Of a DNA stretch of 64,000 nt, positions 8,153-28,998 are shown in pieces. How positions within the stretch are numbered: position 1 is the first letter of the stretch; each line of letters opens with the position of its first letter. Made by a program: the position numbers and the translations under genes. The notes under the pieces are model-generated. The model searched no databases. It saw nothing but the letters and a program-made list of their open reading frames with translations, and was not told the origin of the DNA. Source of the DNA: Parapedobacter defluvii (lineage in GTDB: Bacteria > Bacteroidota > Bacteroidia > Sphingobacteriales > Sphingobacteriaceae); the NCBI RefSeq assembly GCF_014642075.1, contig NZ_BMIK01000001.1:62001-126000 (forward strand), read 5' to 3'.

Positions 8153-8596
8153 ATGGGTGAAAAAAGTAAATATTATGTGAATGAACAAGCAGTAAGGCTA
8201 ATCGCTTTTGTGGTAGTAATCCTTACCGGTGTGCTGTTATACACCCGGTTGGAATGGGTGGGTTTGTTTATGGCCGTCGATTTCTTTCTCAGGGCTTTTA
8301 CAACGATAAAATCGCCACTAGCAATATTGGCCAAGGTTATTTTAGATAAAATTCAGGTAGTTCCCAAGCCCATTTTCGCCCCGCCGAAGCGGTTTGCAGC
8401 GGCGCTGGGGTTTGTCTTTTCAACAGCGATAACAGTATTATTTCATTTTGGCTTATTCACAGCTGCATATGCGGTAGGTGGAATCCTCATTTTTTGTGCC
8501 GTATTGGAATCTGTTTTCAAGGTGTGTCTCGGGTGTTATATCTATAACGGGGTTGTTGCCCCGGTTCTGTTAAAATCTAAGCGGGAAAAACAATGA
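8153..8596 (+). CDS. DUF4395-family membrane protein
   Basis: A 147-residue membrane protein of the DUF4395 family. Seen are VNEQAVRLIAFVVVILTG, the hydrophobic AVDFFLRAFTT stretch, APKRFAAALGFVFS-like sequence, and the C-terminal ESVFKVCLGCYIY motif with two cysteines. There are about four membrane segments. The family often lies next to rhodanese or thioredoxin genes and is suspected to act in sulfur or redox trafficking; the function is not established. The frame extends upstream to a TTG at 8099, but that extension is the DNA of a strong terminator hairpin, so the ATG at 8153 is chosen. The N-terminal Cys-Pro found in many relatives is absent here. Expression is probably controlled by read-through of the two upstream terminators. 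Confidence 0.75.
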   Translation: MGEKSKYYVNEQAVRLIAFVVVILTGVLLYTRLEWVGLFMAVDFFLRAFTTIKSPLAILAKVILDKIQVVPKPIFAPPKRFAAALGFVFSTAITVLFHFGLFTAAYAVGGILIFCAVLESVFKVCLGCYIYNGVVAPVLLKSKREKQ

Positions 8597-8894: not shown

Positions 8895-9482
8895 ATGAAC
8901 AGAAAAATGTATAGACAATTACCCGATACAGAATTGGCCATATTGGTCTCCAAAGGATCAGCGGTCGCCTTTCGTGAGCTATATGAACGTTATTGGGACA
9001 CATTGTTGCAAATGGCCTATCAGCAAATAGGTGATCAATATATAGCAGAAGAAATTGTACAAGATGTGTTTTTGGGGCTGTGGGAACGAAGGCATGAACA
9101 TATCATCCAACAGGTACGCCATTATTTAGCCAAAGCGGTGAAGTTTGCTGTATTCAAGCATATTTTACGTGAAAAAAGAAGAAAGGAACTCCTGTCATCC
9201 AATTTTAGTCCGCATTCTATACAGGATGATGAGGCTTTTTTGGAAGCTCGCTTTTTGGAGGAATTTATAGACCGTGTGGTCGATTCGCTTCCCGAAAAAT
9301 GCCGCGATGTGTTCCAGAAGAGCCGCTACGAAGGGTTGGCTATTCCCGAAATTGCCTGCCAGCTCGGTGTTGCACAGAAAACTGTGGAAGGGCATCTGAC
9401 CAAGGCACTGAAAACCATTCGGTTATCGCTGAAATCACTTCTGCCAAACCTAATGATCGCTGCGATTTACTTCTTTCATTAA
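8895..9482 (+). CDS. FecI-type ECF RNA polymerase sigma factor
   Basis: A 195-residue sigma-70 family protein of the Bacteroidota FecI/RpoE type. Region 2 is visible (FRELYERYWDTLLQMAYQ through AEEIVQDVFLGLWERR, residues 24-70), as is region 4 (LPEKCRDVFQKSRYEGLAIPEIA then the helix-turn-helix AQKTVEGHLTKALKTIR). It directs transcription of the linked SusCD locus when its FecR partner is triggered by the SusC receptor. The anti-sigma gene follows after 88 bases, then SusC and SusD in the same direction. A short hydrophobic tail (LMIAAIYFF) ends the protein, which is common in this subgroup. Confidence 0.95.
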   Translation: MNRKMYRQLPDTELAILVSKGSAVAFRELYERYWDTLLQMAYQQIGDQYIAEEIVQDVFLGLWERRHEHIIQQVRHYLAKAVKFAVFKHILREKRRKELLSSNFSPHSIQDDEAFLEARFLEEFIDRVVDSLPEKCRDVFQKSRYEGLAIPEIACQLGVAQKTVEGHLTKALKTIRLSLKSLLPNLMIAAIYFFH

Positions 9483-9570
9483 TCCACTTTCACCCATTAA
9501 CGTGAATTTTTTTTTTTCGAGCAAGGGTAAATGACGAGCTGTGGTACTATATATATAGTTTAACGGCATC

Positions 9571-10539
9571 ATGGATATCAATGAACTACATGAATTAGTA
9601 GAGCGATATGTGAAGGGAATCGCTACCGATGCTGAGAAGCAAAAGCTTCAGCAATGGTATCAATCAAACTACAAAGAGGAGGTTGGTGAGAATGCCGGTT
9701 GGAATACAAACGGCAAACATCGGATATTCAGGCAGCTGGGTAATCGGATTCCAGAGCTGGTTGAACGGAAACCAAGGTATTGGCTAAGCGGCTGGCAAAT
9801 CGCTGCATCTCTCGTGGTATTAATTGCTGTCGGCCTCTTGTTGTATACCGGTGGTTTTTGGAGAAGGGAGGATGCATCCTTCCGCTTCGTGACGGTGACT
9901 AACCCCGGAGGCGAAGTGAAGCAACTTACGTTACCTGATAACAGCAAGGTATGGCTTAATGCGGGCAGCTCATTGAAATATGCGGATAATTTTACGCAAA
10001 ATCGTATAACTGTACTTGAAGGTGAAGGGTTTTTTGAAGTGGTGCACGATAATAAGCACCCTTTTTCGGTGCATACCGGAAAACTATGCACAAGAGTGTT
10101 AGGTACTGCTTTCAATATCAAAGCTTATCCGGACGAAGGGGAAATTGCAGTGGCGGTAGAACAGGGTAGTGTTGCGGTAACCCGTCAACAACAAGAACTG
10201 GCTACCTTGCATCCGTTAGATCGGGTAGTTTATGAGGTGTCCTCTGACCAAGCTGTGATCGGTAGGGCCGATTTAAAAGATGTGATCGCAATCAAATCGG
10301 GGGAAATCCGCTTCCATGCTATGCGTTTGGATCGGATAGCCAATGAATTGGAAAGGAAATATAATATAACTATCCAATTTAAGAATCCGGATTTAGCCGA
10401 TTGCGTATACACGGCCGCCTTTGGACAAGGCGTGGAACTGGAAGATTTGTTGCTGATGCTTTGTTCTGTAAATAATATAGACTATGCATTCTCGGAAGAT
10501 GGTAAAACAGTATTGTTATCCGGGGTGGGCTGCGGGTAA
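9571..10539 (+). CDS. FecR-family anti-sigma/sigma regulator
   Basis: A 322-residue single-pass inner-membrane protein. A short cytoplasmic N-terminal part (residues 1-70) holds the sigma-binding region, one membrane helix lies near 75-95 (WQIAASLVVLIAVGLLLYTGG), and the periplasmic FecR domain follows (LTLPDNSKVWLNAGSSLKY, EGEGFFEVVHDNKHPFSV, VLGTAFNIKAY). The DUF4974 C-terminal domain (ANELERKYNITIQF) contacts the STN domain of the receptor. It pairs with the sigma factor upstream and with the STN-bearing SusC downstream, which defines a complete cell-surface signalling cascade. Confidence 0.95.
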   Translation: MDINELHELVERYVKGIATDAEKQKLQQWYQSNYKEEVGENAGWNTNGKHRIFRQLGNRIPELVERKPRYWLSGWQIAASLVVLIAVGLLLYTGGFWRREDASFRFVTVTNPGGEVKQLTLPDNSKVWLNAGSSLKYADNFTQNRITVLEGEGFFEVVHDNKHPFSVHTGKLCTRVLGTAFNIKAYPDEGEIAVAVEQGSVAVTRQQQELATLHPLDRVVYEVSSDQAVIGRADLKDVIAIKSGEIRFHAMRLDRIANELERKYNITIQFKNPDLADCVYTAAFGQGVELEDLLLMLCSVNNIDYAFSEDGKTVLLSGVGCG

Positions 10540-10623
10540 TTTTTTTGGACAAAAAGACTACTAAAATGATAGATAAAATAGTGCGAAGAGTGATGCCACC
10601 TTAGAGATTGAACGAAAAGAAAA

Positions 10624-10669
10624 GCCGCCTTACCAATCACTGAATTCGGACCTCAGTTGGTAAAGCGGC
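10624..10669 (+). repeat. Long imperfect hairpin between FecR and SusC genes
   Basis: GCCGCCTTACCAA (10624-10636) and TTGGTAAAGCGGC (10657-10669) pair over 13 positions with one mismatch; an inner CTGA/TCAG extends the fold. No T tract follows, so it is not a standard terminator. It lies in the 5' leader of the SusC gene, just before the preferred ATG at 10711, and may be a regulatory or mRNA-processing element. Confidence 0.55.
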
Positions 10670-10710
10670 CGTGTTGGAATAATCGTAAACAATTAAATCC
10701 TCTCAAATTT

Positions 10711-13700
10711 ATGCATTTTTATTCAAGCCTAAAATGTATAGGCTGTTGTAGTGGATATATTAAGCCCAAAAATATCCATTTCGTTATCCGGGCGTCATTT
10801 CTCGTTACATTTTTATTGTTGTTGCTGGTACCGATCCTGATGGCCAATCATGCCTTTGGGCAGGGTCTGAAGAAGGTGCAGGTAAGCGTCTCTGCCGGAC
10901 GGTTTTCGATAAAAGAGTTATTTGACCTCATCGAAGAACAAACGTCTTATCGGTTTATTTACAATGACCTTGAAATTGCCAACGAAACGCATGTAGAAGT
11001 CAAAAAAAGACGGCCTTTCCTTGCCGTATTGCTTGATGAAATGTTGTTGGGAAAAGGATTTGAATATCAGGCGGTAGGAGACAATATCATCGTTAAGCGT
11101 TCAATCCGGGACAGTGCCGGTCCGGACCGGAGAGAGGCGATTTCTGCTGGATTGCAGCAACGTCAGGTCAATGGAAAGGTGACCGACGAAACAGGGGAAG
11201 TACTACCCGGGGTCAACGTTCGCTGGAAAGGAACGGATAGAACCACCGTAACCGATAACGATGGTAAGTTTCGGCTGTCGGTGTCAGATAAGGAAGCCGT
11301 TTTGTTATTTTCTTATATCGGTTTTACCTCCCGGGAAGTCTTACTAGTGCCGGGGCAATCTGAACTCGTAGTCGTGTTGCAGCCCGAACACAGCGGAATA
11401 GATGAAGTGGTTGTTGTGGGTTATGGTACCCAGCGCAGAAGAGATTTAACCGGTGCGATTGCCTCGGTTTCCAGTAAGCACCTCGAATATAATACTGCAC
11501 CTTCCGTCGATGTATTATTGGGCGGAGCCGTAGCGGGTGTCAGTGTAACGCAGACCTCCGGACAACCGGGAGCCCCGGCCACAATACGCATACGGGGAGG
11601 CAATTCCGTCACTGCGAGCAACAATCCTTTATATGTGATTGATGAATTTCTTTTTTTCAGTGACAATTCCTCAACTAAGGCTGGATTTGGCGGTATTGAA
11701 GGTGAATTCAATCCGCTCAATTTACTTAATCCTTCGGATATCGAATCCATCGAAGTACTGAAAGACGTATCGGCAACTGCTATTTATGGCTCCCGCGGTT
11801 CTAACGGGGTTATTTTGATTACTACAAAACGGGGAAAGAAAGGAAGTGCGTTGGTCGATTATCGGTATTCCTTTGGCGCTGCTAATTCAGCAAAAAAATT
11901 GGATTTACTCAATGCTGCCCAGTGGGCACGCATGCAAAAGGATTATTTCCTGAATAAACCGGGTTACAGTGATGCGGAGATCACACAGTTAGGCACAGGA
12001 TACGATTGGCAAAGCGCTGTATTGCAAACAGGCATTACGCAAAATCACTCTCTTTCCATCAGTGGCGGGGACGAAAAAACGCAGTACTTCCTTTCAGGAG
12101 ACCACCTTTCCCAGGAGGGTGTGGTACGCAACTCGGGGTTCAACCGTTTTGTCGGACGGGCAAACTATGACCGTGAAGTGCTATCGGGCTTGAAGGTTGG
12201 GATCAGCCTGACGGGCAACAAAAGTACACAAAACAGCCTGACAACCTTTGAAGAAGTAAATTACAACAGTTCGCCTTATTCGGCGGGCATAGCCAACTCC
12301 CTGACGTATGCGCTGTATATACCCCCTGTGGTGCCGCTATACAGTGCCAATGGCGGCTATAACTATAACAATCCGTTTGAATATGCTTACCTGCGCCAGG
12401 GCAACACTACCGCCAATCCGATTTCTGACTTGGTGAACAGCACAGCACAAACCATATATACTGGATTACTCGGCAATTTTTATGCCCTGTATAAGCCCGC
12501 ACGGGGCTTTACGGCGAGGGCCAGCGTGGGTAGCAACATAGGGTATGTTACCCAAAATTATTTTTCACCTTCTTACACAGCACTCGGTCTTGAACCCGGA
12601 GGCGTAGGCGGGATTGGCAACAAACGGTCGGAAATCCTGCTTTCCGAATTTACCTTATCGTATGAGAAAGCAGTAAACGAGGTACATGCTTTCGATGTGC
12701 TGGCAGGTTTTACGTTCCAAAATACGAAAACGAATTTCGTATCCACATTGAGTTCAGGCTTTACGAACGAAGACCTGGGAGTAGACAATCTACAGGACGG
12801 CACCCCCTATGGAAGCAGACCTATATTCAGCGGGGCGACGGGAAGCAGCCTCTATTCGTTATTAGGAAGAGTCAACTATGCCTTGTATGGCCGCTATCAC
12901 CTGACGGCCAATTTCCGAAGCGACTATTCGACACGTTTTGCAAAGAATCATAAGTGGGGCCTTTTCCCTTCCCTCGGTCTGGCGTGGAATGTCGATGAAG
13001 AGCCTTTTCTGGAAGATGCAAGGCATCTAAGCAACCTGAAACTCCGCATAAGTGCAGGAAGTGTCGGCAACCAAGAGATCGGGGATTATGAATACCTGCA
13101 GTTTCTGGAAGCGGCGCACTACGGTGGAGAGGTGGCTTACCGTGTAGGCAACAGCGGCAACGAAGACCTGAAATGGGAAACGACTTCGCAATACAATGCC
13201 GGCGTGGATGTAGGCTTCTTCAACAACCGGCTTTCGGCAGCGGCAGATGTGTATTACAAGCAGACGTCTGACTTGCTGTTGCTGATCCCGCCGAAGCTGG
13301 GAGAAGAAAACGAACAGTTGGTCAACGTGGGTAATCTGACCAACCGGGGAGCAGAGCTTTCGTTGAACGCAGTCGTGGTAGACAATCCGCGGTTGCAATG
13401 GTCCATTGCAACCAATGTTGCGTATAACCGAAACCGGATTACCAAATTGTTCAATAACGCCACGGAAAAGCTGCTGGGGGAGGAAATATTGCGGATAGGC
13501 GAGCCGCTGGGCTCGTTTTATGGGTTGGTGTTTGAAGGCGTGGTGCAGAAAAATGAAGACGTTTCAGCACTGCCTACCAGTCCGTCATATACCGCGTTGC
13601 AGCCGGGAGATCCTAAATATAAAGATGCCAACCACGACAATCACATCGATTTGAATGACCGTGTGGTCCTGGGCAGCAACCAGCCGGATCTGACTTACGG

Positions 13701-14157
13701 TTTTTCATCTGCCGTCAATTACCACGGATTCGATCTGTTCGTTTTGTTGCAGGGGACGAAAGGCAACCATGTATACAACCAGTTGCGCCGCTACCTGGAA
13801 AGGCCCAACGACGCATACAATGCGTCGGCAGTACTGTTGGACAGCTGGACAGAAACCCATCCTTCCAACACCGTTCCGCGCATTACCAACACGCCGCTTT
13901 CGTCCGAGCTGGACAGCCGCTACGTCGAAGATGCTTCTTATTTGCGGCTGAAAACCGTTACGCTTGGTTACACGTTGGGAAAAACTTCATCGACTCTGCG
14001 GAATCTGCCGTTAAAGGTACGGGTTTTTGTTACCGGTCAAAACCTGCTTACACTGACGGGCTACAAGGGGTACGATCCGGAAATTTCAAGGGGCGTCGAT
14101 CTGGGGGCCTATCCCATGCCCCGTACCTTCCTGTCGGGAGTTAATGTATCGTTTTAG
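10711..14157 (+). CDS. SusC/RagA TonB-linked outer-membrane receptor with STN domain
   Basis: An 1148-residue TonB-dependent transporter. An N-terminal signal segment (LVTFLLLLLVPILMANHAFGQ) ends near residue 52. A secretin/TonB short N-terminal (STN) signalling domain follows (about residues 55-130, FSIKELFDLIEEQTSYRF), then a carboxypeptidase-regulatory-like domain (VNGKVTDETGEVLPGVNV), the SusC box EVVVVGYGTQRRRDLTGAI and plug, then a 22-strand-type barrel ending MPRTFLSGVNVSF. The frame extends to a TTG at 10657 inside a hairpin; the ATG at 10711 is the better start. The STN domain is what FecR senses. The SusD partner follows after 60 bases. The downstream cargo is not carbohydrate enzymes, so the ligand may not be a glycan. 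Confidence 0.96.
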   Translation: MHFYSSLKCIGCCSGYIKPKNIHFVIRASFLVTFLLLLLVPILMANHAFGQGLKKVQVSVSAGRFSIKELFDLIEEQTSYRFIYNDLEIANETHVEVKKRRPFLAVLLDEMLLGKGFEYQAVGDNIIVKRSIRDSAGPDRREAISAGLQQRQVNGKVTDETGEVLPGVNVRWKGTDRTTVTDNDGKFRLSVSDKEAVLLFSYIGFTSREVLLVPGQSELVVVLQPEHSGIDEVVVVGYGTQRRRDLTGAIASVSSKHLEYNTAPSVDVLLGGAVAGVSVTQTSGQPGAPATIRIRGGNSVTASNNPLYVIDEFLFFSDNSSTKAGFGGIEGEFNPLNLLNPSDIESIEVLKDVSATAIYGSRGSNGVILITTKRGKKGSALVDYRYSFGAANSAKKLDLLNAAQWARMQKDYFLNKPGYSDAEITQLGTGYDWQSAVLQTGITQNHSLSISGGDEKTQYFLSGDHLSQEGVVRNSGFNRFVGRANYDREVLSGLKVGISLTGNKSTQNSLTTFEEVNYNSSPYSAGIANSLTYALYIPPVVPLYSANGGYNYNNPFEYAYLRQGNTTANPISDLVNSTAQTIYTGLLGNFYALYKPARGFTARASVGSNIGYVTQNYFSPSYTALGLEPGGVGGIGNKRSEILLSEFTLSYEKAVNEVHAFDVLAGFTFQNTKTNFVSTLSSGFTNEDLGVDNLQDGTPYGSRPIFSGATGSSLYSLLGRVNYALYGRYHLTANFRSDYSTRFAKNHKWGLFPSLGLAWNVDEEPFLEDARHLSNLKLRISAGSVGNQEIGDYEYLQFLEAAHYGGEVAYRVGNSGNEDLKWETTSQYNAGVDVGFFNNRLSAAADVYYKQTSDLLLLIPPKLGEENEQLVNVGNLTNRGAELSLNAVVVDNPRLQWSIATNVAYNRNRITKLFNNATEKLLGEEILRIGEPLGSFYGLVFEGVVQKNEDVSALPTSPSYTALQPGDPKYKDANHDNHIDLNDRVVLGSNQPDLTYGFSSAVNYHGFDLFVLLQGTKGNHVYNQLRRYLERPNDAYNASAVLLDSWTETHPSNTVPRITNTPLSSELDSRYVEDASYLRLKTVTLGYTLGKTSSTLRNLPLKVRVFVTGQNLLTLTGYKGYDPEISRGVDLGAYPMPRTFLSGVNVSF

Positions 14158-14217
14158 GAAATGCAAACATGTTTAGTAATCATTCATTAATCGTTCACCA
14201 TTTTAAAATTTGATAAG

Positions 14218-15927
14218 ATGACAAAGTACGTTAACCAGTTGGCTGTATTGGCCATCACGGGTTCTTTGGCACTTTACTCGTGCAAAAAGAATGACCCGGA
14301 CAATCCGAATGTGATCACGGGAGACTCCGTATGGAAAACCGACCAGGAAGCACTTGCTACCGCAAACGCCGCATATCCACCCTGGCAGCGGCTCAGTTCG
14401 TCGTATTCGTTCCTGTTGGAGTCTACCAGCGAGCACACCATCAGCTTCGAAGGTACGGATGACGAAGCCGGCCCGTTGGTGAGCCAGTTCAAAACCGACG
14501 TAAACAACTGGTACCCGACCAAAATTTTCAATTACCTCTACGTCAGCATCGGTGAGGCGAACCGGACGATAGGCAAGGCCGACTCCAGTCAGGCAGGAGA
14601 GGGGCTTTCGCAGGAAACGATTGACCTGGCGAGAGCGAGGGCTAAATTCATCCGTGCACTGGGGTACGCTTACCTCACGAATCTTTGGGGTGAAGTGCCA
14701 CTGATCCTGAATACCGTCCCTTCGGAAGCCGAGCAAACCACGCGTAAACCGATTGATGAAGTCTACGCGCAAATCGTAAAGGATCTGACAGAGGCAGAGG
14801 CCGATCTGCCCGCCTTTGACCAGATCCGCTCCAATCCCAGCAAGGGTGCCGCCAATGCCATCCTGGCCCGTGCCTATCTCACCTGGGCCAGCAAACCGCT
14901 TTCCCAAAATGAAGTGGCTGCCGTCGCCGGAGGCAAGGCAGACCCCGCACCGGTAGCATGGGATAACGACAAGCTTCAGAAAGCAATCGAGTATGCCGAC
15001 AAAGTGATTAACAATGGCAATTTCCGATTGGAAGCCGACTTTGAAGACAATTTCGGTGTACCGGCTGAAAACAAGTCTCCGGAACATATCTTTACCATTC
15101 ACCACGACGGCGATGGGCTGGGGGATGCACAGGGCAACCACCAAACACACTGTCCCTTCACGTTCCGTTTCGATCTCTACCAAGACAACCACATCGGGCC
15201 GGCAGATGTTACGCTGATTGATCGCTTTTCAGATGATGACAAGCGTAAGCGGTTTTCGATCACCGACCATCTGTACAACCAGGATGAACCGTTGGTGACC
15301 TCTCCTTCGAAGGCGGCCGATTTCAAGGAATACCACTACGTATTTCCAGTTACTTCGCCACGTATCGGCAAATTTATCCATCGCAACGCTTCCTATCCGG
15401 AAGTAGCTCCGGGATCCGAAGCGGGCCAGCCGAATAACATCAACCGCATTGAAATCCGGTTTGCCGAGGTGTTGCTCATCAAAGCCGAAGCGCTGCTTCA
15501 ACTGGGTAGAGCCGATGAGGCCGCACAGGTGATTAATCCATTGCGCGAACGGGCCGGCTTGGATACGTATACGACGCTTACACAGGCGGATTTGGAACAG
15601 GAATGGTACCTGGAGCTGTTTTTCGAACAACGTCATTGGTCAAATTTGGTGCGCTGGCGCAAATTGGTCAGCACCGTGTTGACAGATGTAGCCAAATTTG
15701 AGTATTACAAGGACGACTACAAATCCGTCGCTTCTCAGGTTGCCAAATTCGGCCCGGAAAAGGACGGTACAGGGGGTAGCGTGAAGACCAATTATCCGTT
15801 CTTTGCGAAGGTGTACAAACACCTCCACTCAAAAACGGATAATGTAAGTGGCAAATTCTACCGTTTTCCGATTCCGAAAGGATTGTCCGGTAATGAGTTG
15901 GGTATCGTTCAAAATCCGGGATATTAA
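14218..15927 (+). CDS. SusD/RagB-family outer-membrane lipoprotein
   Basis: A 569-residue surface lipoprotein that caps the SusC barrel. The signal peptide ends in the lipobox SLALYSC (Cys22). Helical repeat regions typical of SusD are visible (YLYVSIGEANRTIG, ARAKFIRALGYAYLTNLWGEVPLI, ANAILARAYLTWA), followed by the C-terminal SusD domain (RFAEVLLIKAEALLQLG, INPLRERAGL, EWYLELFFEQRHWSNLVRW) and the terminal IVQNPGY. It is immediately downstream of SusC. A terminator-like hairpin lies just past its stop, so the downstream exported redox proteins may be transcribed at a lower level. Confidence 0.96.
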   Translation: MTKYVNQLAVLAITGSLALYSCKKNDPDNPNVITGDSVWKTDQEALATANAAYPPWQRLSSSYSFLLESTSEHTISFEGTDDEAGPLVSQFKTDVNNWYPTKIFNYLYVSIGEANRTIGKADSSQAGEGLSQETIDLARARAKFIRALGYAYLTNLWGEVPLILNTVPSEAEQTTRKPIDEVYAQIVKDLTEAEADLPAFDQIRSNPSKGAANAILARAYLTWASKPLSQNEVAAVAGGKADPAPVAWDNDKLQKAIEYADKVINNGNFRLEADFEDNFGVPAENKSPEHIFTIHHDGDGLGDAQGNHQTHCPFTFRFDLYQDNHIGPADVTLIDRFSDDDKRKRFSITDHLYNQDEPLVTSPSKAADFKEYHYVFPVTSPRIGKFIHRNASYPEVAPGSEAGQPNNINRIEIRFAEVLLIKAEALLQLGRADEAAQVINPLRERAGLDTYTTLTQADLEQEWYLELFFEQRHWSNLVRWRKLVSTVLTDVAKFEYYKDDYKSVASQVAKFGPEKDGTGGSVKTNYPFFAKVYKHLHSKTDNVSGKFYRFPIPKGLSGNELGIVQNPGY

Positions 15928-15935
15928 TGAGCACG

Positions 15936-15966
15936 TTGCCTGTTCAACCGAGGCTGAACAGGCAGC
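15936..15966 (+). terminator. Hairpin between SusD and the DUF4625-like gene
   Basis: GCCTGTTCA (15938-15946) and TGAACAGGC (15955-15963) form a perfect 9-bp stem, extendable outward through a G-T wobble to about 13 bp. Only a weak T stretch (GTTTTG) follows. It may be a partial terminator or a 3' stability element for the SusCD message. Confidence 0.55.
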
Positions 15967-16053
15967 GTTTTGCTGGTAAACCATCGGCAAACGTCGGTTT
16001 AGGACTTATAATTATAAAATAATAATCGGGATTTATCCCAAAAACAGAATAAC

Positions 16054-16524
16054 ATGAATAGAAAAACATTATGGGGCGTATTGATTCTCTTGAACCTAAG
16101 CTGGATAGCCTTGTCATCCTGCAGCAAAGAGGACGATGTAAAACCCGCGGCTCCGAAAATAGAGTTGATTCATTTGGGGACGCACGACTCACCGGATGAC
16201 CGGATCATCTATCGGAATGAAATACACTTTGAAGCCAAGATTACCGCAGAAGCACTCATCCAGAAAATAGACCTGGAAATTATCCAGAAGAGCGGATACG
16301 GAACCTACAGCTTCACCAAAGAGTATACGGGTGATTATACCGGACAAAAAGAGATCGCTGCTTTTCACGATCATCCGACACTGGCTGAGGATGCACCGAT
16401 CGGTGATTACTTATTCCGGCTGACGGTAACCGACCAGCAAGGTCAGGCCGTATCCATTGAAGAAGATGTGACCGTTAAAGTCGGAGAGGGCGGCGGCGAG
16501 CACGAGCACGAACATGAGCATTGA
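16054..16524 (+). CDS. DUF4625-like lipoprotein with His-Glu repeat tail
   Basis: A 156-residue lipoprotein with lipobox ALSSC (Cys23) and a single Ig-like beta domain of the DUF4625 type (IIYRNEIHFEAKITAE, YTGQKEIAAFHDHPTLAEDAPIGDYLFRLTVTD). It ends in alternating Glu-His (EHEHEHEH). Such tails bind divalent metals such as Zn, Cu or Ni in other proteins, so a metal-capturing surface role is plausible but inferred. It is the first gene after SusD, and its stop overlaps the TlpA-like gene start by 11 bases, implying translational coupling. The family assignment is by pattern, not search. Confidence 0.72.
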   Translation: MNRKTLWGVLILLNLSWIALSSCSKEDDVKPAAPKIELIHLGTHDSPDDRIIYRNEIHFEAKITAEALIQKIDLEIIQKSGYGTYSFTKEYTGDYTGQKEIAAFHDHPTLAEDAPIGDYLFRLTVTDQQGQAVSIEEDVTVKVGEGGGEHEHEHEH

Positions 16525-17008
16525 TGTATACCGGCTTGGATGGCTTTGTGTCATTTGGCTGTTTGCCACCATGGTTTCGGCACAGACGCGCCTGCCGGCC
16601 ATCCAGGTAAACAACCTGAAAGGGGAGACGGTTAATGTTGGGTCGCTGTTGGATGACGGCGTGCCTACTGTGATTACTTTCTGGACAACGGTGTGCAAGC
16701 CCTGTTTGCAGGAACTGGACGCATTTTCGGAGCAATGGGAGGACTGGCAGCGGGAAGTCAAATTCAACATCGTGGCGGTCTCGGCCGACGATGCACGGTC
16801 GGCGACGAAAGTGCGCACGTTTGTAGCGGCGAACGAATGGCCATTTACCATCCTGCTGGATCAAAACCAGGATTTTAAACGTGCGCTGAACGTGAGCGTC
16901 ATTCCTCACCTCTTTGTCATTGATACCAAAGGGAGTGTGGTCTATTCGCGCATTGGGTACAACCCGGGCAGCGAAGCGAAGGTGCTGGAAATATTGAAAG
17001 GGCTGTAA
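16514..17008 (+). CDS. TlpA/ResA-like thioredoxin-fold protein
   Basis: A 164-residue exported thioredoxin-fold protein. The signal peptide runs to about residue 23 (MVSA-Q), the active-site motif CKPC is at residues 61-64 preceded by VITFWTTV, the central VVAVSADDARSATKV segment follows, and the cis-proline loop is VIPHLFVID. Members of this family reduce or exchange disulfides in envelope proteins and apo-cytochromes. The ATG at 16514 overlaps the upstream lipoprotein gene by 11 bases, and the outer-membrane barrel gene begins at the base after its stop. This coupling suggests the three products act together in the envelope. Confidence 0.9.
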   Translation: MSIDVYRLGWLCVIWLFATMVSAQTRLPAIQVNNLKGETVNVGSLLDDGVPTVITFWTTVCKPCLQELDAFSEQWEDWQREVKFNIVAVSADDARSATKVRTFVAANEWPFTILLDQNQDFKRALNVSVIPHLFVIDTKGSVVYSRIGYNPGSEAKVLEILKGL

Positions 17009-18592
17009 GTGAGACTGAGACAAGGCGGTATCCAACGTATGTTCTTATTTGCTGTGCTCTCATCGGCATCGCCGTATTTGCTGGCACAGCATCACCTGTC
17101 GGGGGGCTTTGAGTCGAACTCTGTTTATTACCGGGATGACCGGAAAACCGGAGCGGTCGTCCCGGAAAACAATCTGGGATCCAACAATTATTTCAAATTG
17201 GATTATCAATACCATAAATTCAGTGCAGGGATTCAATACGAAGCCTATCTTCCCGTATTGCAGGGGTTGCCTACTGCATTGCATGGCAGCGATCTGGTGC
17301 TGAAGTACGCCTCATTTCAGGACAGCAACTTTAGGGTTACGGCGGGTGATTTTTACGAGCAATTTAGTAACGGGCTGATCTTCCGTGCGTACGAAGAGCG
17401 GGCGTTGGGGCTTAACACGGCCATGGAGGGAATCCGGGCTTCCTATTCGTTTGGAAACGGCATTCGCTTGAAAGCACTCGCGGGACGGCCTCGTGAATTT
17501 ATGGAACGGGCAGAATCAGTAGTGAAAGGGGCCAGTATTCAGGTCGACTGGACGGCGTTGCTGGGGCTTAACCGTTCATCCTTCACTATAGAAGCCAACT
17601 ACATCAACCGATATGTGAGTTACACAGGGCAGGCGGCAATTGATCCGAACGTAAATGCGTATTCGTTTGGCGGTAACTGGGTAGCCGGAGGCTTCACTTT
17701 GGAGAGTGAATATGCCTATAAGACGAACGATCCCGGTGCCTACAACGGCCAGGCGAATAAAGATGGCAGTGCACTGTTGTTACAGGCAGGTTATACCGCA
17801 TCCGGTTTCGGTAGTCTGCTGTCTTTCCGAAGGCTGGAATACATGCAGTTCGGTACGTCCCGCGGGATTGCCGGCATCGGACGCGATCTGAATTACCTGC
17901 CGGCGTTGACACGTCAATACAGTTATTCCCTTGCCAATCTGCAACCCCATAACGCGATGGGAAACAGCGAAATCGGTGGGCAATTGGATCTTCATTATCG
18001 GTTGAAGCGGGGAAGTTGGCTCGGCGGTAGATACGGTGCAAGAGTGGCCCTGAATGCTTCCACGTATTATAACTTAAAGGGAGATGTAGTGGGGGGCTAT
18101 GCGTTTTTGGACAAAGGGGATACGCGTTATTACCAGGATATCAATGTGGATCTGGAAAAGAAAATCAGCCCTTCATTTCAGCTGCTGCTCCTCTATTCCA
18201 ATCAGGTATACAACCCCATCGTCATCGGGAAAGCGAATACGCTGTATTTTTCGCAGGTGGCCGTTGCCGATCTCACCTGGAAAGTTTCGGCTGTGCGGTC
18301 GTTCCGTTTCGAAATGCAGCATCTCTGGAGCAATGATTATCAGAAAAATTGGGCGGCGGGAATGGCCGAATTTGCGATTTCCCCTGCGTGGACCTGTTTC
18401 GTCGGCGATATGTACAATTACGGAGATACGGATGTCCATTATTACAACGGAGGGTGCAGCTATACAATGTCGCGCACGCGCCTGGCGCTCAACTACGGAA
18501 GAAACCGCGAAGGAGTGATCTGCGCGGGTGGCGTCTGTCTGTATATGCCTGCTTACACCGGCTTCAATTTATCCCTTATTTCATCATTTTGA
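17009..18592 (+). CDS. DUF6029-like outer-membrane beta-barrel protein
   Basis: A 527-residue protein with signal sequence (FLFAVLSSASPYLLAQ) and long runs of alternating amphipathic strands ending in aromatic residues, as expected for an outer-membrane barrel. The N-terminal part HHLSGGFESNSVYYRDD and the motif EERALGLNTAMEGIR match my recollection of the DUF6029 family, which commonly lies next to thioredoxin-like and Omp28 genes in Bacteroidota. Two starts are possible: GTG at 17009, abutting the previous stop, or ATG at 17039, which gives the cleaner signal peptide. The molecular function is unknown. Confidence 0.75.
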   Translation: MRLRQGGIQRMFLFAVLSSASPYLLAQHHLSGGFESNSVYYRDDRKTGAVVPENNLGSNNYFKLDYQYHKFSAGIQYEAYLPVLQGLPTALHGSDLVLKYASFQDSNFRVTAGDFYEQFSNGLIFRAYEERALGLNTAMEGIRASYSFGNGIRLKALAGRPREFMERAESVVKGASIQVDWTALLGLNRSSFTIEANYINRYVSYTGQAAIDPNVNAYSFGGNWVAGGFTLESEYAYKTNDPGAYNGQANKDGSALLLQAGYTASGFGSLLSFRRLEYMQFGTSRGIAGIGRDLNYLPALTRQYSYSLANLQPHNAMGNSEIGGQLDLHYRLKRGSWLGGRYGARVALNASTYYNLKGDVVGGYAFLDKGDTRYYQDINVDLEKKISPSFQLLLLYSNQVYNPIVIGKANTLYFSQVAVADLTWKVSAVRSFRFEMQHLWSNDYQKNWAAGMAEFAISPAWTCFVGDMYNYGDTDVHYYNGGCSYTMSRTRLALNYGRNREGVICAGGVCLYMPAYTGFNLSLISSF

Positions 18593-18609
18593 CAAAAACG
18601 TATCCCATC

Positions 18610-19446
18610 ATGAAAAAGATCAGTGTGCTACAGCTCCTTGTTGCACTCGCGCTTATGATCAGCGCCTGTGCCAAAGGGGGCGGAACGATTGAAAACCCGG
18701 ATACAGGCGATCCGGATACATCGCCTTTCACCAAAAATGTACTGATCATGGAATTTGTTTCTTTCGATTGCGTCTACTGTCCGGCTGTTTCGAACGTATT
18801 ACAGGAACTGTCAGAAAAAACGTATCCGGGAAGAATTGATGTCGTCAGTATACATGGGCGGCTCGAAGAAGACGATCCCATGGAATTCAAGGGATATCAG
18901 CAATTCCAGAATTATTTTTACGGAGTTACGGGGTATCCCGCCGTGATCCTGGACCAACGGGACGACCTCATTTCGGTGGGTATGTTCGACGCTTCGAGCG
19001 ATGCTTTTTCAGGGCGTATAAACGTTGCGGCACCTATTGGCATTGCGTTGAGCTCCACGTTGACAACTGATAACAACGTCCGTGTGGAAGTGCAGGTGGC
19101 CAACAAGGGGAAATCGTCTTCGGATTACCGCTTGGCGGTGGCCGTGGTGGAAAATGACATTGCGTACCGGCAGGCAGACCTGGTTAACGGCAGCCAGCAA
19201 TGGATTGACGATTACCGCCACCAGCACGTGTTGCGCGCATTCCTAAGTGAAAATTATTTTGGAGACCCGATAGGCTCACTGGCCGAGGACGGCACCTATT
19301 CGAAGACCTTTGTCTACACGGTTCCCGCAGAATACCAAACGGATAACCTATCGTTTGTCGCTTATGTTGTCGAAGCAAAGGGTTTTTCCAGCCGGGTTTC
19401 CGTGAACAGCCGGACGGTACCCATCGGAAAAGCAATTGATTTTTAA
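18610..19446 (+). CDS. Omp28-like outer-membrane lipoprotein with CxxC motif
   Basis: A 278-residue lipoprotein (lipobox MISAC, Cys20). An N-terminal thioredoxin-like domain carries EFVSFDCVYCPAV with cysteines at residues 54 and 57, followed by a beta-rich C-terminal domain; this is the layout of the Omp28-related family. The open frame reaches far upstream inside the barrel gene, but the ATG at 18610 gives the only credible signal peptide. It begins 17 bases after the barrel gene. Together with the CKPC protein this puts two thiol-redox proteins in the same operon. The family's exact activity is not established. Confidence 0.85.
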   Translation: MKKISVLQLLVALALMISACAKGGGTIENPDTGDPDTSPFTKNVLIMEFVSFDCVYCPAVSNVLQELSEKTYPGRIDVVSIHGRLEEDDPMEFKGYQQFQNYFYGVTGYPAVILDQRDDLISVGMFDASSDAFSGRINVAAPIGIALSSTLTTDNNVRVEVQVANKGKSSSDYRLAVAVVENDIAYRQADLVNGSQQWIDDYRHQHVLRAFLSENYFGDPIGSLAEDGTYSKTFVYTVPAEYQTDNLSFVAYVVEAKGFSSRVSVNSRTVPIGKAIDF

Positions 19447-19447
19447 C

Positions 19448-19849
19448 GTGAACAAAAATATATCCTACCTGCTGCTGGCATTGGTGCTCATTACGGTGGC
19501 CATTGCGTTGTACCTTTGGAACAAACCCCACCGTAGCATCGATGGTCGCCGAACGGAACATGTCACTGCGGCGACGATTACCCAAGCTTTTGAAGACGAT
19601 GAAACAGCTGCCAACCAAAAATACCTCAATAAGGCGTTGACGGTGCAAGGAGTTGTGGAAGAGATCTCCAAAAATGATGCGGGGCAACAGGTGATTTTTA
19701 TAAAAGGGCATCGTGATTTTTCCGGAGTGCAATGCACATTTAAGGCGCCGGAAATCGAAGTCGGCGTCGGAGATACGATAAATGTAAGCGGGTTCTGCAA
19801 TGGATATACCGTAGCCGTCATTTTGGACGACTGTAAACTGCTGGAATAA
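19448..19849 (+). CDS. Membrane-anchored OB-fold (tRNA_anti-like) protein
   Basis: A 133-residue protein with one N-terminal membrane segment (ISYLLLALVLITVAIALYLW) and an OB-fold domain of the tRNA_anti-like type (KALTVQGVVEEISKNDAGQQ, VQCTFKAPEIEVGVGDTINVSGFCNGY). GTG at 19448 is chosen because it follows the Omp28 stop by one base; a TTG at 19436 would overlap that gene. OB-fold proteins of this kind in Bacteroidota are often encoded with cytochrome c and YceI genes, as here. No nucleic-acid role is implied, since the domain is outside the cytoplasm. Function unknown. Confidence 0.75.
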   Translation: MNKNISYLLLALVLITVAIALYLWNKPHRSIDGRRTEHVTAATITQAFEDDETAANQKYLNKALTVQGVVEEISKNDAGQQVIFIKGHRDFSGVQCTFKAPEIEVGVGDTINVSGFCNGYTVAVILDDCKLLE

Positions 19850-19853
19850 AACT

Positions 19854-20219
19854 ATGAAGCGAATAATCATTTTTATCGGTAGCGCGGTTGTCCTGCTATC
19901 TGCATGCTATAAAAACAGCCTGGAGGAGTTGTCCGGTTCAAGCGATTGCAATACGATCAATATGTCGTATGCTGCTGACATCCGACCCATTATCAGCATT
20001 TCGTGTGCAATCAGCGGTTGCCATCATGCAGGTACTGTACTCACTTTTCCACTCACTACGTACGATGAGGTAAAGGCGGAAGCCGACAACGGACTGCTCT
20101 TAAAAAGCATCAACCATGAACCGGGTGTATCCGCGATGCCCAAAGATGCTTCCAAGCTTTCCGATTGTCAGATCGGGAAGATCACTTCCTGGGTAGATGC
20201 CGGTGCCCCCAACAATTAA
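19854..20219 (+). CDS. Cytochrome-c-like lipoprotein with CX4CH motif
   Basis: A 121-residue lipoprotein (lipobox LLSAC, Cys18). After MSYAADIRPIIS it carries CAISGCHHAG, in which Cys51, Cys56 and His57 make a CX4CH heme-attachment-like motif rather than the usual CX2CH. The MPKD methionine near residue 97 could be the distal ligand, and the C-terminal QIGKITSWVDAGAPNN is typical of small cytochrome c domains found with planctomycete-type and Bacteroidota c-heme proteins. Heme attachment is inferred. It is packed between the OB-fold and YceI genes (4 and 22 bases). Confidence 0.72.
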   Translation: MKRIIIFIGSAVVLLSACYKNSLEELSGSSDCNTINMSYAADIRPIISISCAISGCHHAGTVLTFPLTTYDEVKAEADNGLLLKSINHEPGVSAMPKDASKLSDCQIGKITSWVDAGAPNN

Positions 20220-20241
20220 TGTAACCGTAAAAATAGCAAAA

Positions 20242-20796
20242 ATGAAACGATTCTTCTTCCTCGCTTTTTTGTCTTTCTTGCTCATTTCCGGGGTAGCCCG
20301 TGCGCAACAGTACCTTACCCGTACCGGACAGGTAACCTTCCGTTCGGAGGCTCCGGAGGAGCTGATCGAAGCCCAAAACAACGACGTAGCTGCTCAGCTT
20401 ATTGTGAGTGAAGCCAAAGGGCAGTTTATTATCCCGATAAAGTCCTTTAAATTTAAAAAGGCATTGTTGCAGGAGCATTTCAACGAAAATTACATGGAAA
20501 GCGACACGTATCCAAAAGCTACTTATCGGTTTACCATCGAGGATATCCGAAATGTTGACTTCCAAAAGCCCGGTCGCTACCCGGTCCGGACCAATGGGGT
20601 CATCACCCTCAAAAAAACAGCCAAAACGATCCGTGTGCCCGGATATATTGTCGTCAGCAACGGTGATTCCATCAAAGTGGAAGCCTCCTTTTCATTATCC
20701 CCGGCAGATTATGACATCCAAATACCGAAACTGGTAGAAAACAAAATAGCCAAGAACATTGAGATCAACGTACGAAGTACGCTCAGCAAACCCTAA
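20242..20796 (+). CDS. YceI-family periplasmic protein
   Basis: A 184-residue exported lipocalin-like protein. The signal peptide is MKRFFFLAFLSFLLISGVARA. The mature part shows the YceI pattern (TGQVTFRSEAPEELIEAQNND, FKFKKALLQEHFNENYMESDTYPKATYRF, KTIRVPGYI). YceI proteins bind isoprenoid or amide lipids and are often encoded next to cytochromes, which has led to ideas about quinone-like carriers. The ATG at 20242 is preferred over upstream GTG codons because it starts the signal peptide. The next gene starts four bases after the stop. Confidence 0.9.
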   Translation: MKRFFFLAFLSFLLISGVARAQQYLTRTGQVTFRSEAPEELIEAQNNDVAAQLIVSEAKGQFIIPIKSFKFKKALLQEHFNENYMESDTYPKATYRFTIEDIRNVDFQKPGRYPVRTNGVITLKKTAKTIRVPGYIVVSNGDSIKVEASFSLSPADYDIQIPKLVENKIAKNIEINVRSTLSKP

Positions 20797-20800
20797 CTGT

Positions 20801-21679
20801 ATGAAAAGGTATCTCTATTACCTACTAGTTTTTTCAGCTTTATTGCTTACGTTACCTGCTTCCGCTCAGGAGCAGGATACCATCGGATTTGACGAAGACC
20901 TGAGTTACCTGGATGATTTAAACAATCAGGTTACCGCTACTTTTAAAACGACAAGGATAGCCAACGCGCACACCGTTGAACAGTGCAAGGCAGGTGTGCT
21001 GGATCTGCGGATCAATCACCGCTTCGGGCGGCTCAGCGACGGCCTGTATAACTTCCTTGGGCTGGATAATGCCGTCACACGGATCGGTTTCGATTATGGA
21101 ATTACCGATTACCTAATGACTGGGATCGGCAGGAGTACACTCAACAAAGAATATGACGGCTTTGCCAAAATCCGTGTGTTGCGTCAGACGAAAACAGCAG
21201 TACCCGTAACGGTCAATTATTTGGCGGGTGTATACTTGGTAACGGAAAAAAACAGTGTCGAAAACCTCTCTTTTTTTAACAGGGTGACGTATTTGCATCA
21301 GTTGCTAGTTGCCCGGAAGTTTAATGAAAAGTTAAGCCTTCAACTGATGCCTACTTTACTGCATTTCAATATGACAAGTGCTGCTTCAGAAAAGAACACC
21401 TTGGGTGCGCTGGGCTTCGGTGGCAGGTATAAAATAAGTAAAAGGACGGCACTTACCGTGGAATATTACTATGTGCCGGAACCTTTCAAAAGAGAAAAGA
21501 ATGTCGATCCGCTGACGATTGGGTTGGATATTGAAACCGGAGGTCATGTTTTCCAACTCTTTTTCTCCAATGCATCAGGCATCAGCGAGCGCTCCTTGTT
21601 TACGAATACCCTTTCGAAATGGGAAAAAGGGCAATTGCACTTTGGGTTTAATATATCCCGGGTTTTTACGCTCCATTAG
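20801..21679 (+). CDS. DUF5777-like beta-barrel protein
   Basis: A 292-residue exported protein (signal MKRYLYYLLVFSALLLTLPASA) with barrel-like strands. The motif FKTTRIANAHTVEQCKAGVLDLRINHRFG followed by LGLDNAVTRIGFDYGITDYLMTGIG is the hallmark I associate with the DUF5777 family, usually last in cytochrome c/YceI clusters of Bacteroidota. It may form an outer-membrane pore or scaffold for the upstream redox proteins; that is inference. It ends the operon, and a long hairpin follows at 21729. Confidence 0.78.
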   Translation: MKRYLYYLLVFSALLLTLPASAQEQDTIGFDEDLSYLDDLNNQVTATFKTTRIANAHTVEQCKAGVLDLRINHRFGRLSDGLYNFLGLDNAVTRIGFDYGITDYLMTGIGRSTLNKEYDGFAKIRVLRQTKTAVPVTVNYLAGVYLVTEKNSVENLSFFNRVTYLHQLLVARKFNEKLSLQLMPTLLHFNMTSAASEKNTLGALGFGGRYKISKRTALTVEYYYVPEPFKREKNVDPLTIGLDIETGGHVFQLFFSNASGISERSLFTNTLSKWEKGQLHFGFNISRVFTLH

Positions 21680-21728
21680 GACAAAGTTCATCCTTGTTGG
21701 CCGAAACAGAAAATTCCATTTTAGAGAA

Positions 21729-21769
21729 GGTGTCTCCTATGTTTGTTGCAAGCAAATGTAGGAGACACC
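21729..21769. terminator. Bidirectional terminator hairpin between convergent operons
   Basis: GGTGTCTCCTA (21729-21739) and TAGGAGACACC (21759-21769) are perfect inverted repeats, and an inner TTTG/CAAA adds to the stem. It lies between the stop of the DUF5777-like gene (+) and the stop of the surface lipoprotein gene (-), so it can end both transcripts. Confidence 0.75.
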
Positions 21770-21783
21770 CTCAATAGGAATGA

Positions 21784-22848
21784 TTATTTTTTAACAAACC
21801 TCATACCCCTCAGGTTAAATCCAGACTGTTCGGTGTAAAATTTGACCTTATGGGTTCCCTGAGTAAGGTTCACAACAAAGGGCGTATTCGGGAAAAAGCG
21901 CCAATCGGCCCAGGACCCGTTATTTGGCACATCGACTGTACCGGTTACGTTTACCCCATCGATTTCAATTCTGAACTTACCATCACCTGCGGCAGACAAG
22001 GCGACATCTAGCCAGTACTCGCCTGCATCCTGTACGTGTACCGTATACTGCCACCACTCATCCGCATTGATATAGCCGATATTCGTGCCATCTCCTTCGA
22101 TTTCCACCGAGAAACTCTCGGTGTCACCTTTACCACGTCTGTAATCATCGTTGTTTAGCGGATTCGTCGCGTCCGCATCGTGAAAAGCGTATCCTTCCCC
22201 TCCGAAATCAAAATCAGCCGCATATAAATGAAGGGGGCCGGCCACAGAAATGATATGTGGTCCATTAAACGGACGCGTAGTTGAGACAGTTACCGATACC
22301 CGTTTTTCAACCTCTCCTGCACGGAAAATAATGTCGGTTACGCCTTCGCTCATCGCGGTCACTTCTCCATTCTCAGTTACCCTAGCGACGTCCGGATCTT
22401 CAGAAATCCATTGGCGATTGGGTACATCGTTCGCATTCTCCGGAATGAGAGTCACCAAAAGGTTCTTCTGATCTCCGGGTTTTAGTTCGAGCGATGTTTC
22501 GCTTATCGTGGCATCTTCCAGCGGAATACGAACGACCGAAGTAATCGGTACTATGGTTTTTGCGTTACCGCCAGTCACGATGATGTTTGTCGTACCGGCA
22601 CCAACTGTCTGGACCAAGCCGCTGTTACTGACCGTTGCAACGGTAGGATCTTCACTTGTCCATTGATAATTGTATGTGCCGTCGGTTGGACTAGCGGTAA
22701 GTTGCATTTGCTCACCGACAAAAAGGGAAACCGACTCTTTATCCACATATATACTTTTGGGGATTTCCTTTACCTCATACTTGTCGCATCCCATGAAACA
22801 AATGGTAAGCAGATAAGCGAAGCATACATAACTTAGTATCTTATTCAT
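21784..22848 (-). CDS. Surface lipoprotein with two Big2 domains and a C-terminal CBM6-like domain
   Basis: A 354-residue lipoprotein (lipobox ICFMGC, Cys21). Two Ig-like Big2 domains follow (about residues 30-110 and 115-190; note the repeated WTSEDPTVATVSNSGLVQ and WISEDPDVARVTENGEV). The C-terminal region from about 225 looks like a carbohydrate-binding CBM6/CBM35-type jelly roll (DADATNPLNNDDYRRG, INADEWWQYTVHVQDAGEYWLDV, FNLRGMRFVKK). It is the last gene of an enzyme-free SusCD operon and probably presents a glycan-binding module at the cell surface. No catalytic domain is visible. Confidence 0.85.
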   Translation of the reverse strand: MNKILSYVCFAYLLTICFMGCDKYEVKEIPKSIYVDKESVSLFVGEQMQLTASPTDGTYNYQWTSEDPTVATVSNSGLVQTVGAGTTNIIVTGGNAKTIVPITSVVRIPLEDATISETSLELKPGDQKNLLVTLIPENANDVPNRQWISEDPDVARVTENGEVTAMSEGVTDIIFRAGEVEKRVSVTVSTTRPFNGPHIISVAGPLHLYAADFDFGGEGYAFHDADATNPLNNDDYRRGKGDTESFSVEIEGDGTNIGYINADEWWQYTVHVQDAGEYWLDVALSAAGDGKFRIEIDGVNVTGTVDVPNNGSWADWRFFPNTPFVVNLTQGTHKVKFYTEQSGFNLRGMRFVKK

Positions 22849-22875
22849 CTGAAAAACTTTTAATCGTTAAACATG

Positions 22876-23811
22876 CTACAGCTTGACTTCTTCGTCCGGA
22901 TCAAACTCAAGTCTCAGCTCTTCTTTCATTTCGTAGACCGTACCTGACATCCGAAAATAATAATGTAAAAGGAATGTTTTATACGTCTTGAAACCATCAT
23001 CCTCTATTGAGAAAGTGTTTGGATAGTCCTTATCTCCGTCAATCTGTAATATTTCAACGTCTTTGTAAGGTAAGATCGTCACCTTGTTGTCTTCGCCTAT
23101 GCGGAGAATAATCGCCCCACGATTAAATACACCAACTTCGGATGAGTAAGTCTCATTACCTACCATAATACGGACTTCACGCTCGCTGATGGGGTGCATG
23201 ATTTTGGAACCTGGCAGTTGCAATTCGAATGTCGATCCATCCTGCCGAAGTTTAGCCCGCATGCTGTAGATCGTATTTCCATCGGCTTTCGCCCAATAGT
23301 TTTTCGTCCTTACCTGATACAGTAAATAACTCTTCTCGGGATTCACCTCGTAGGAAGAATGCGATTCTACGCGCAGTGGAATGAAATAAGATGAGTCGGG
23401 AGACAGCCCATCGGGACGAATTCGGATGGGCAAACGTCCACTGATTTCGCCCGCCGGAATCGTGAACGAATACGTTTCGATATCGTATTTGCTTGCCGGG
23501 AGCGGGCGACCGTACTTCGAAACATCCACGTCAAAATTAATCTTGTTATACGCATCAATTAACGATGGGTCCTCAATCAGGTTTATTTCGATCGGGTTGG
23601 CCGTAGGGTTAGTCCCTCCAAGCGAAGCCGCGACATACCCTGCGGATTCACCCCCTAGATCATGAAACTTAGAAGCCACGTTACCGCTACCACTTACCAG
23701 TGCAAATACATTTTTATATTGCTCCCGTGTAAAAACTTCATCTCTATCGCATGAGATAGACAGCGCCGCTAATGCCACAATCGCTGTGTATTTTCTAAAT
23801 GAACGTCTCAT
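22876..23811 (-). CDS. DUF1735/DUF4361-like surface lipoprotein
   Basis: A 311-residue lipoprotein (lipobox LSISC, Cys21). The N-terminal half resembles DUF1735 (BT_3987-type), with segments such as NPIEINLIEDPSLIDAYN and YDIETYSFTIPAGEISGRLPIRI, and the C-terminal half resembles DUF4361. Such proteins occupy the SusE/SusF position after SusD and help bind ligand. The frame extends nine codons upstream into the SusD gene; the ATG at 23811 is preferred. The SusD stop lies inside that extension, so spacing is tight. Family names are by pattern. Confidence 0.75.
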   Translation of the reverse strand: MRRSFRKYTAIVALAALSISCDRDEVFTREQYKNVFALVSGSGNVASKFHDLGGESAGYVAASLGGTNPTANPIEINLIEDPSLIDAYNKINFDVDVSKYGRPLPASKYDIETYSFTIPAGEISGRLPIRIRPDGLSPDSSYFIPLRVESHSSYEVNPEKSYLLYQVRTKNYWAKADGNTIYSMRAKLRQDGSTFELQLPGSKIMHPISEREVRIMVGNETYSSEVGVFNRGAIILRIGEDNKVTILPYKDVEILQIDGDKDYPNTFSIEDDGFKTYKTFLLHYYFRMSGTVYEMKEELRLEFDPDEEVKL

Positions 23812-23825
23812 ATTCGTTTTCTTTA

Positions 23826-25829: not shown

Positions 25830-25845
25830 AGTGAGTATTTTTCTT

Positions 25846-28980: not shown

Positions 28981-28998
28981 GTAGTTGCGATTTGATTA

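Follow-up and report, generated by a model that had tools for sequence, protein, structure and literature searches.

A rare but conserved linkage between a SusCD importer and thiol-redox envelope genes in Parapedobacter defluvii

The window analysed here is the whole 64,000-nucleotide stretch of Parapedobacter defluvii contig NZ_BMIK01000001.1 (positions 62,001 to 126,000), and the subject of this study is a run of twelve genes at window positions 8895-21679 in which a SusCD importer is followed by envelope redox proteins. It is apparent that six of these genes, SusC-SusD-DUF4625-TlpA-DUF6029-Omp28 (the core), represent a genuine and conserved, but rare, linkage of SusCD to thiol genes. The identical order was found in five other genomes, from the Chitinophagaceae and relatives, so that the core is present in six genomes of two families, and an order kept in five further genomes exceeds chance. 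In the full set of twelve genes, three parts have been fused locally: the core, a downstream module of four genes (OB-fold protein, cytochrome, YceI and DUF5777; module B) and a FecI-FecR-STN circuit.

The five relatives were obtained from a scan with the DUF6029 protein, which gave three loci, and from a search of the family of locus L024 with a SusD profile, which gave two more (5 of 396 genomes in total). SusD orthologues surfaced only when that family was searched; apart from the window's own, none was detected in samples of the order (400 genomes) or of the class (395 genomes). The SusD of the window is 77-80% identical to those of the five relatives, and SusC is 69-70% identical to those of three relatives where aligned; the corresponding values are 62-66% for Omp28 and 48-53% for DUF4625. 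The CKPC motif of TlpA and the CVYC motif of Omp28 are conserved in all six genomes, and the six SusCD-linked copies of DUF6029 group as one clade, with a support of 1.0, when 38 proteins of this family are placed in a tree. The conserved order, the identity of the SusD proteins and the single DUF6029 clade together argue that the linkage is real. An earlier interpretation of this DNA, made from the sequence only, had proposed a SusCD system tied to eight redox and envelope families. That link is borne out in the six genomes for DUF4625, TlpA, DUF6029 and Omp28, and not for the OB-fold protein, the cytochrome, YceI and DUF5777, which lie beside the core in none of the five relatives. The separate conservation expected of genes that are adjacent by chance was thus observed for the module B half of the unit, but not for the SusC-to-Omp28 half.

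All twelve genes named in the sequence-only reading were confirmed, in a single direction, on the + strand. They are listed here in window coordinates, together with the associated hairpins.

8895-9482, +: extracytoplasmic function (ECF) sigma factor, FecI-type (Sig70_bacteroi1 domain match)
9571-10539, +: FecR anti-sigma factor (FecR and FecR_C domains)
10624-10669, +: hairpin between fecR and susC (-20.8 kcal/mol)
10657-14157, +: SusC TonB-dependent transporter with N-terminal STN, alternative ATG start at 10711 (TIGR04056, 849 bits; STN, E 1e-4)
14218-15927, +: SusD surface lipoprotein (SusD_RagB, PF07980, E 3e-29)
15082-15159, +: His/Cys-rich segment of SusD, EHIFTIHHDGDGLGDAQGNHQTHCPF, near-invariant in the six related genomes
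15933-15991, +: hairpins directly 3' of susD (z -4.4)
16054-16524, +: DUF4625 lipoprotein with the C-terminal end EHEHEHEH (PF15418, E 6e-14)
16514-17008, +: TlpA/ResA-like periplasmic thioredoxin with CKPC (AhpC-TSA; best solved relative 2m72)
17009-18592, +: DUF6029 outer-membrane barrel (PF19494, E 1e-171)
18610-19446, +: Omp28 lipoprotein with CVYC in its thioredoxin-like N-terminal part (PF11551, E 1e-32; profile matches Omp28 structure 2r2c)
19436-19849, +: OB-fold (tRNA_anti-like) membrane-anchored protein, first gene of module B (PF12869, E 4e-19; module B synteny)
19854-20219, +: c-type cytochrome-like lipoprotein with C-AISG-CH, a CX4CH motif (phmmer match to module B cytochromes)
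20242-20796, +: YceI-like periplasmic protein (PF04264, E 9e-12)
20801-21679, +: DUF5777 outer-membrane barrel (PF19089, E 7e-91)
21729-21769, +: strong terminator-like hairpin closing the unit (19-bp stem; 21725-21785 folds at -29.7 kcal/mol)

Glycans and peptides are the known cargoes of SusCD importers. With adjacent SusC (TIGR04056) and SusD (PF07980) genes, the window unit is a member of the SusCD (RagAB) family by the features tested. Carbohydrate-active enzymes and glycan-binding proteins were found neither among the genes at 8895-21679 nor between SusC and Omp28 in the five relatives; because these defining enzymes were sought and not found, the unit is not a polysaccharide utilisation locus (PUL). 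The neighbouring locus, at 21784-30321 on the opposite strand, holds CBM6 and SusCD genes. Gaps mostly under 25 bases, as described previously for the unit, apply to the eight genes from DUF4625 to DUF5777 (in order, -11, 0, 17, -11, 4, 22 and 4 bases). They do not apply to its first part, in which the gaps are 88 bases between the ECF sigma factor and FecR, 117-171 between FecR and SusC, 60 between SusC and SusD and 126 between SusD and DUF4625.

Hairpins 3' of susD were observed in five of the six core loci, with z values of -4 to -9. They were considered as a signature of the core and rejected, as three of nine unrelated susD genes have one too; they may therefore be a general feature of SusCD operons. 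The sequences of the strong hairpins (window 15933-15991 and loci L023, L024, L095 and L096) vary between genomes.

Several features of the core and of its surroundings bear on the nature of the cargo. Residues 290-312 of SusD contain five or more His and one Cys and are near-invariant in the six genomes; nine other SusD-like open reading frames never exceed three His/Cys per 30 residues, compared with five His and one Cys in the window SusD. In an alignment to the levan SusD BT1762 the segment begins at position 292 of that protein, in which Cys298-Cys299 contact the ligand (PMC7782687); the two cysteines may lie near the aligned segment. The C-terminal HxH...H of DUF4625 (H150, H152 and H156) is invariant in the six genomes and would lie, according to a structure model, in a disordered His-rich tail that follows an Ig-like sandwich. 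In genomes of the class, DUF4625 adjoins a non-SusC TonB receptor, often together with a Fur-family regulator. The receptors match models of ZnuD and of haem receptors, and the regulators in part match Zur, with every one of these scores far below cut-off.

The neighbours of the core in the relatives were also considered. An HMA-domain TonB receptor adjoins the core in all five; the highest score of its HMA domain, at 30 bits and below cut-off, is to CopZ copper chaperones. Four of the five also have, beside the core, a TonB receptor and a lipoprotein with a BNR propeller, in which the motifs CxCCRT and CPHxGP are invariant; at locus L025 the receptor is present and the propeller lipoprotein is absent. 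Although the outer flanks differ among the five relatives, a pyridoxal phosphate (PLP) enzyme of Cys/Met metabolism flanks the core locus in every one. The HMA receptor and the CxCC propeller would favour copper as cargo, the contexts of DUF4625 zinc, and the PLP enzyme sulfur. From sequence features, then, several independent leads appear to converge on a metal or thiol ligand, which the unit might both bind and sense.

The favoured proposal on this basis is a SusCD importer whose cargo would be a small organic ligand bearing a soft metal, with copper the likeliest and zinc next, or a metal plus thiols; a thiol relay would reduce or release the cargo. This proposal is advanced tentatively, as a reading that may well be correct but falls short of being probable. 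SusCD importers work by a lid ('pedal-bin') mechanism, and proteins of the TlpA type carry out thiol exchange. The His/Cys patch of SusD and the His-tailed DUF4625 lipoprotein would dock a metal-bearing ligand at the surface, and SusC would import the docked ligand. A relay from the CKPC of TlpA to the CVYC of Omp28 would reduce the cargo, or keep the metal reduced, and so lead to its release or hand-over. DUF4395, an inner-membrane protein with a CxGC motif, would perhaps feed the TlpA relay through the inner membrane, and DUF6029 would be an associated barrel alongside the importer. In the window genome a FecI-FecR-STN circuit would have been added, such that cargo binding would turn the operon on, and an ordinary cytochrome/YceI/DUF5777 module would have been joined downstream. 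Gene content, gene order, conservation, invariant motifs and the insertion at a variable locus were read directly; the ligand, the identity of the metal, the electron path and the sensing step are inferences.

A more specific form of the proposal, in which the cargo is a copper-thiol complex (a chalkophore-like peptide or a copper-thiolate) that docks at the surface through the His/Cys residues and is reduced, by a dedicated DUF4395-TlpA-Omp28 relay leading from the inner to the outer membrane, to free Cu(I), is considered unlikely, if worth naming. Were it true, there would be a class of SusCD systems driven by metal/redox chemistry and not by carbon.

Some of the data weigh against a metal-ligand importer. 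The AlphaFold model of SusD, made with a four-row alignment, has a mean confidence score (pLDDT) of 41.6, too poor to reveal a metal site. The Ig-like sandwich fold of DUF4625 is generic, and it was rejected as a lead to copper proteins because its structure matches are generic Ig, PKD and FnIII sandwiches. The zinc leads (Zur-type neighbours) conflict with the copper leads (HMA and CxCC). The HMA receptor and the propeller are outside the window's cluster, their homologues being located elsewhere in the window genome. The TlpA-DUF6029-Omp28 trio occurs without SusCD in most Bacteroidia, so that its role may be general, and the five relatives may not be mutually independent.

A first alternative is that the cargo is a sulfur compound. 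The unit would then import a disulfide, a thiol peptide or another organosulfur compound, which TlpA and Omp28 would reduce and the PLP enzyme would use, the metal-like residues being incidental. Consistent with this are the persistence of the PLP enzyme beside all five relative loci despite their differing outer flanks, the invariance of the CKPC and CVYC thiol motifs and the name of the record that holds locus L023, scnpilot, which, as a reading of the name only, apparently denotes a thiocyanate reactor. The PLP enzyme is, however, absent from the window's island, and the HMA receptor, the CxCC propeller, the His tail of DUF4625 and the His patch of SusD are left unexplained, so that a sulfur importer is regarded as rather improbable.

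The wide distribution of the trio bears on a different alternative, that a general envelope thiol trio is simply co-transcribed with an ordinary glycan or peptide SusCD. DUF6029 is present in 110 of 149 class genomes, almost always as a single copy and mostly next to TlpA and Omp28 with no SusCD, and the hairpin 3' of susD could uncouple the two halves of the unit. Simple hitch-hiking accords poorly, however, with a core order that six genomes keep despite changing outer flanks, with the separate clade formed by the SusCD-linked trio, and with the position of DUF4625, not a usual member of the trio, which always lies between SusCD and the trio. It is accordingly given a low probability. DUF6029 has been suggested to be a polysaccharide exporter (PMC9603273), and the present data neither support nor exclude that role. 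In one genome, G092, the DUF6029 gene (C1:572045-573621) is split into three matches with several stop codons; elsewhere in the class it is nearly always intact.

The remaining parts of the unit are set apart from the core. STN, FecR and FecI are components of signalling across the envelope, and the corresponding genes (an ECF sigma factor, FecR and a SusC with STN) are all present in the window, although the STN match is weak and below Pfam's curated cut-off. No ECF or FecR gene is situated beside the core in the five relatives, the SusC proteins of which are shorter at the N-terminus by about 100 residues or more, and no STN was found in the one relative SusC N-terminus scanned. This pattern fits the known FecI-FecR switch. 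The ECF sigma factor, FecR and STN belong together and are confined to the window among the six core loci, contrary to their earlier inclusion in one set with the core.

Module B is likewise a separate entity, common in the Bacteroidia. DUF5777 is present in 134 of 149 class genomes and, in sampled loci, is mostly accompanied by one or two cytochromes and YceI, and often by the OB-fold protein. The window carries the four genes in order, and lacks the second, larger two-haem cytochrome often found elsewhere. The cytochrome-like lipoprotein carries an MP dipeptide (a possible Met ligand), and its match to Pfam Cytochrome_CBB3 reaches just E 0.05. The CX4CH motif was rejected as a mark of unusual haem chemistry, being found in 16 of the 38 haem motifs of module B cytochromes. 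A second cytochrome-YceI-DUF5777 set, without the OB-fold gene, is located elsewhere in the window genome (L057:5310-8098; G000:C1:910-913 kb); it is preceded by a Lipoprotein_15 repeat protein, and its haem motif is the normal CxxCH. At L073 (G135) and L075 (G100), ECF-FecR-TonB receptor genes are directly upstream of an OB-DUF5777-cytochrome-YceI set, and the receptor differs from that of the window; the joining of module B to ECF-FecR-receptor genes has therefore occurred elsewhere too.

All twelve genes would constitute one integrated surface redox machine in the view taken previously. The tight gaps and the 11-base overlap of the omp28 and OB genes in the window are consistent with that view, as is the arrangement in G100 and G135. 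Module B, however, is an ordinary envelope gene set that stands alone in most Bacteroidia and is joined to the core in the window genome only, and just one of the three relative genomes searched has DUF5777. As neither module B nor FecI/FecR accompanies the core in any relative, the single machine is rejected as the default and is considered decidedly improbable. Least probable by a clear step is the uptake of haem or haem-like iron by an Omp28 acting like the thioredoxin-like hemin-binding HBP35, with the cytochrome as haem acceptor: the downstream cytochrome-like lipoprotein, the scores of DUF4625-adjacent receptors against haem receptor models and a weak Omp28 sequence match to HBP35 (5y1a, E 0.007) speak for it, but the profile drops that match to E 0.013 with chiefly the CxxC region aligned, the relatives lack the cytochrome module next to the core, and the HMA and CxCC features are unsuited to haem.

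The unit was also compared with known systems. PUL-type SusCD with FecI/FecR, such as the levan importer BT1763-1762 (PMC7782687), has in common with it the SusC transporter, the SusD lid, the ECF sigma factor, FecR and the STN of SusC; the window unit differs in having no glycoside hydrolase and in having thiol-redox and DUF4625 genes and a His/Cys-rich SusD segment. XusABC, which takes up xenosiderophores in Bacteroides, combines a lidded TonB transporter with reductive release (PMC13142918). The window unit likewise has a TonB transporter with a surface lipoprotein lid and, as proposed here, a reductive step, and in four relatives the receptor and propeller next to the core form a pair with the architecture of XusABC. 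However, the unit and XusABC have no component in common: XusA is not a SusC, XusB is a DUF4374 propeller and the reductase is the inner-membrane XusC, not a thioredoxin relay. The DUF4374 and PepSY reductase domains of XusB and XusC are absent from the window unit, and the propeller of the four relatives is of the BNR type. The DUF4625-receptor-Fur/Zur-type loci of the Bacteroidia likewise place a DUF4625 lipoprotein beside a TonB-dependent transporter, but that transporter belongs to the ZnuD/haem-receptor type and is often accompanied by a Fur-family regulator, whereas the window has SusCD with FecI/FecR; no published description of these loci was found. The trio of other Bacteroidota comprises the same three genes, usually in one copy per genome.

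The combination of SusCD with thiol/metal genes was not found described in the open-access literature, subscription papers being outside the search; the same literature yielded no paper that describes DUF4625 or DUF5777, and only a passing remark on DUF6029. A conserved SusCD linked to surface proteins of thiol-redox and metal type would widen the SusCD family to metal or sulfur chemistry, and would give a functional handle on common families that have no described function (DUF4625, DUF6029, Omp28 and DUF4395).

Related metal-type genes were observed elsewhere. The window genome has a lone HMA-domain TonB receptor (L082:11451-14012; G000:C2:285-288 kb) that is 44-49% identical to the core-adjacent receptor of the relatives, and its contigs C20 and C6 encode HMA proteins with GNCxMC inside apparent copper-handling clusters. 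A recurring set in the Bacteroidia comprises a small Cys-rich protein (CxGKC or CKGSC, with a near-terminal HPP), a TBDT2-related TonB receptor and a propeller lipoprotein in which CxCCRT and CPHxGP are invariant. It was observed in the window genome (L116:9409-13512; G000:C1:963-967 kb) and at L112, L113, L115 and L117; in G071 (L114) the receptor and the propeller occur without the small Cys-rich protein. By analogy, the set looks like a soft-metal uptake pair of XusAB-like build, and no published description of it was found. Identification of the TBDT2 helper-locus receptor as a pyrroloquinoline quinone transporter was rejected: its best solved match is YncD/PqqU, yet far below the family cut-off.

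The unit is situated in an island, the first gene of which encodes DUF4395.

8153-8596, +: DUF4395 inner-membrane protein with the cysteine pair CLGC, a possible thiol carrier (PF14340, E 6e-29)

A DUF4395 homologue with CIGC is located downstream of the core in G1025; in genus-mates, no DUF4395 gene was detected behind YeiH. Three of the genus-mates have, directly after YeiH or past one gene of 299 aa, the receptor gene whose start in the window is at 30899. This adjacency identifies 23 kb (7.8-30.9 kb), which span DUF4395, the SusCD/redox unit and the next SusCD locus, as extra DNA inserted at a variable site. Between YeiH and the TonB receptor (window 7797-30898), genus-mates carry other contents or none. 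DUF6029 was found in none of eight genus-mates, and a plasmid origin was rejected, the SusD being unmatched in PLSDB. Horizontal gain of the island would be the simplest reading of these data.

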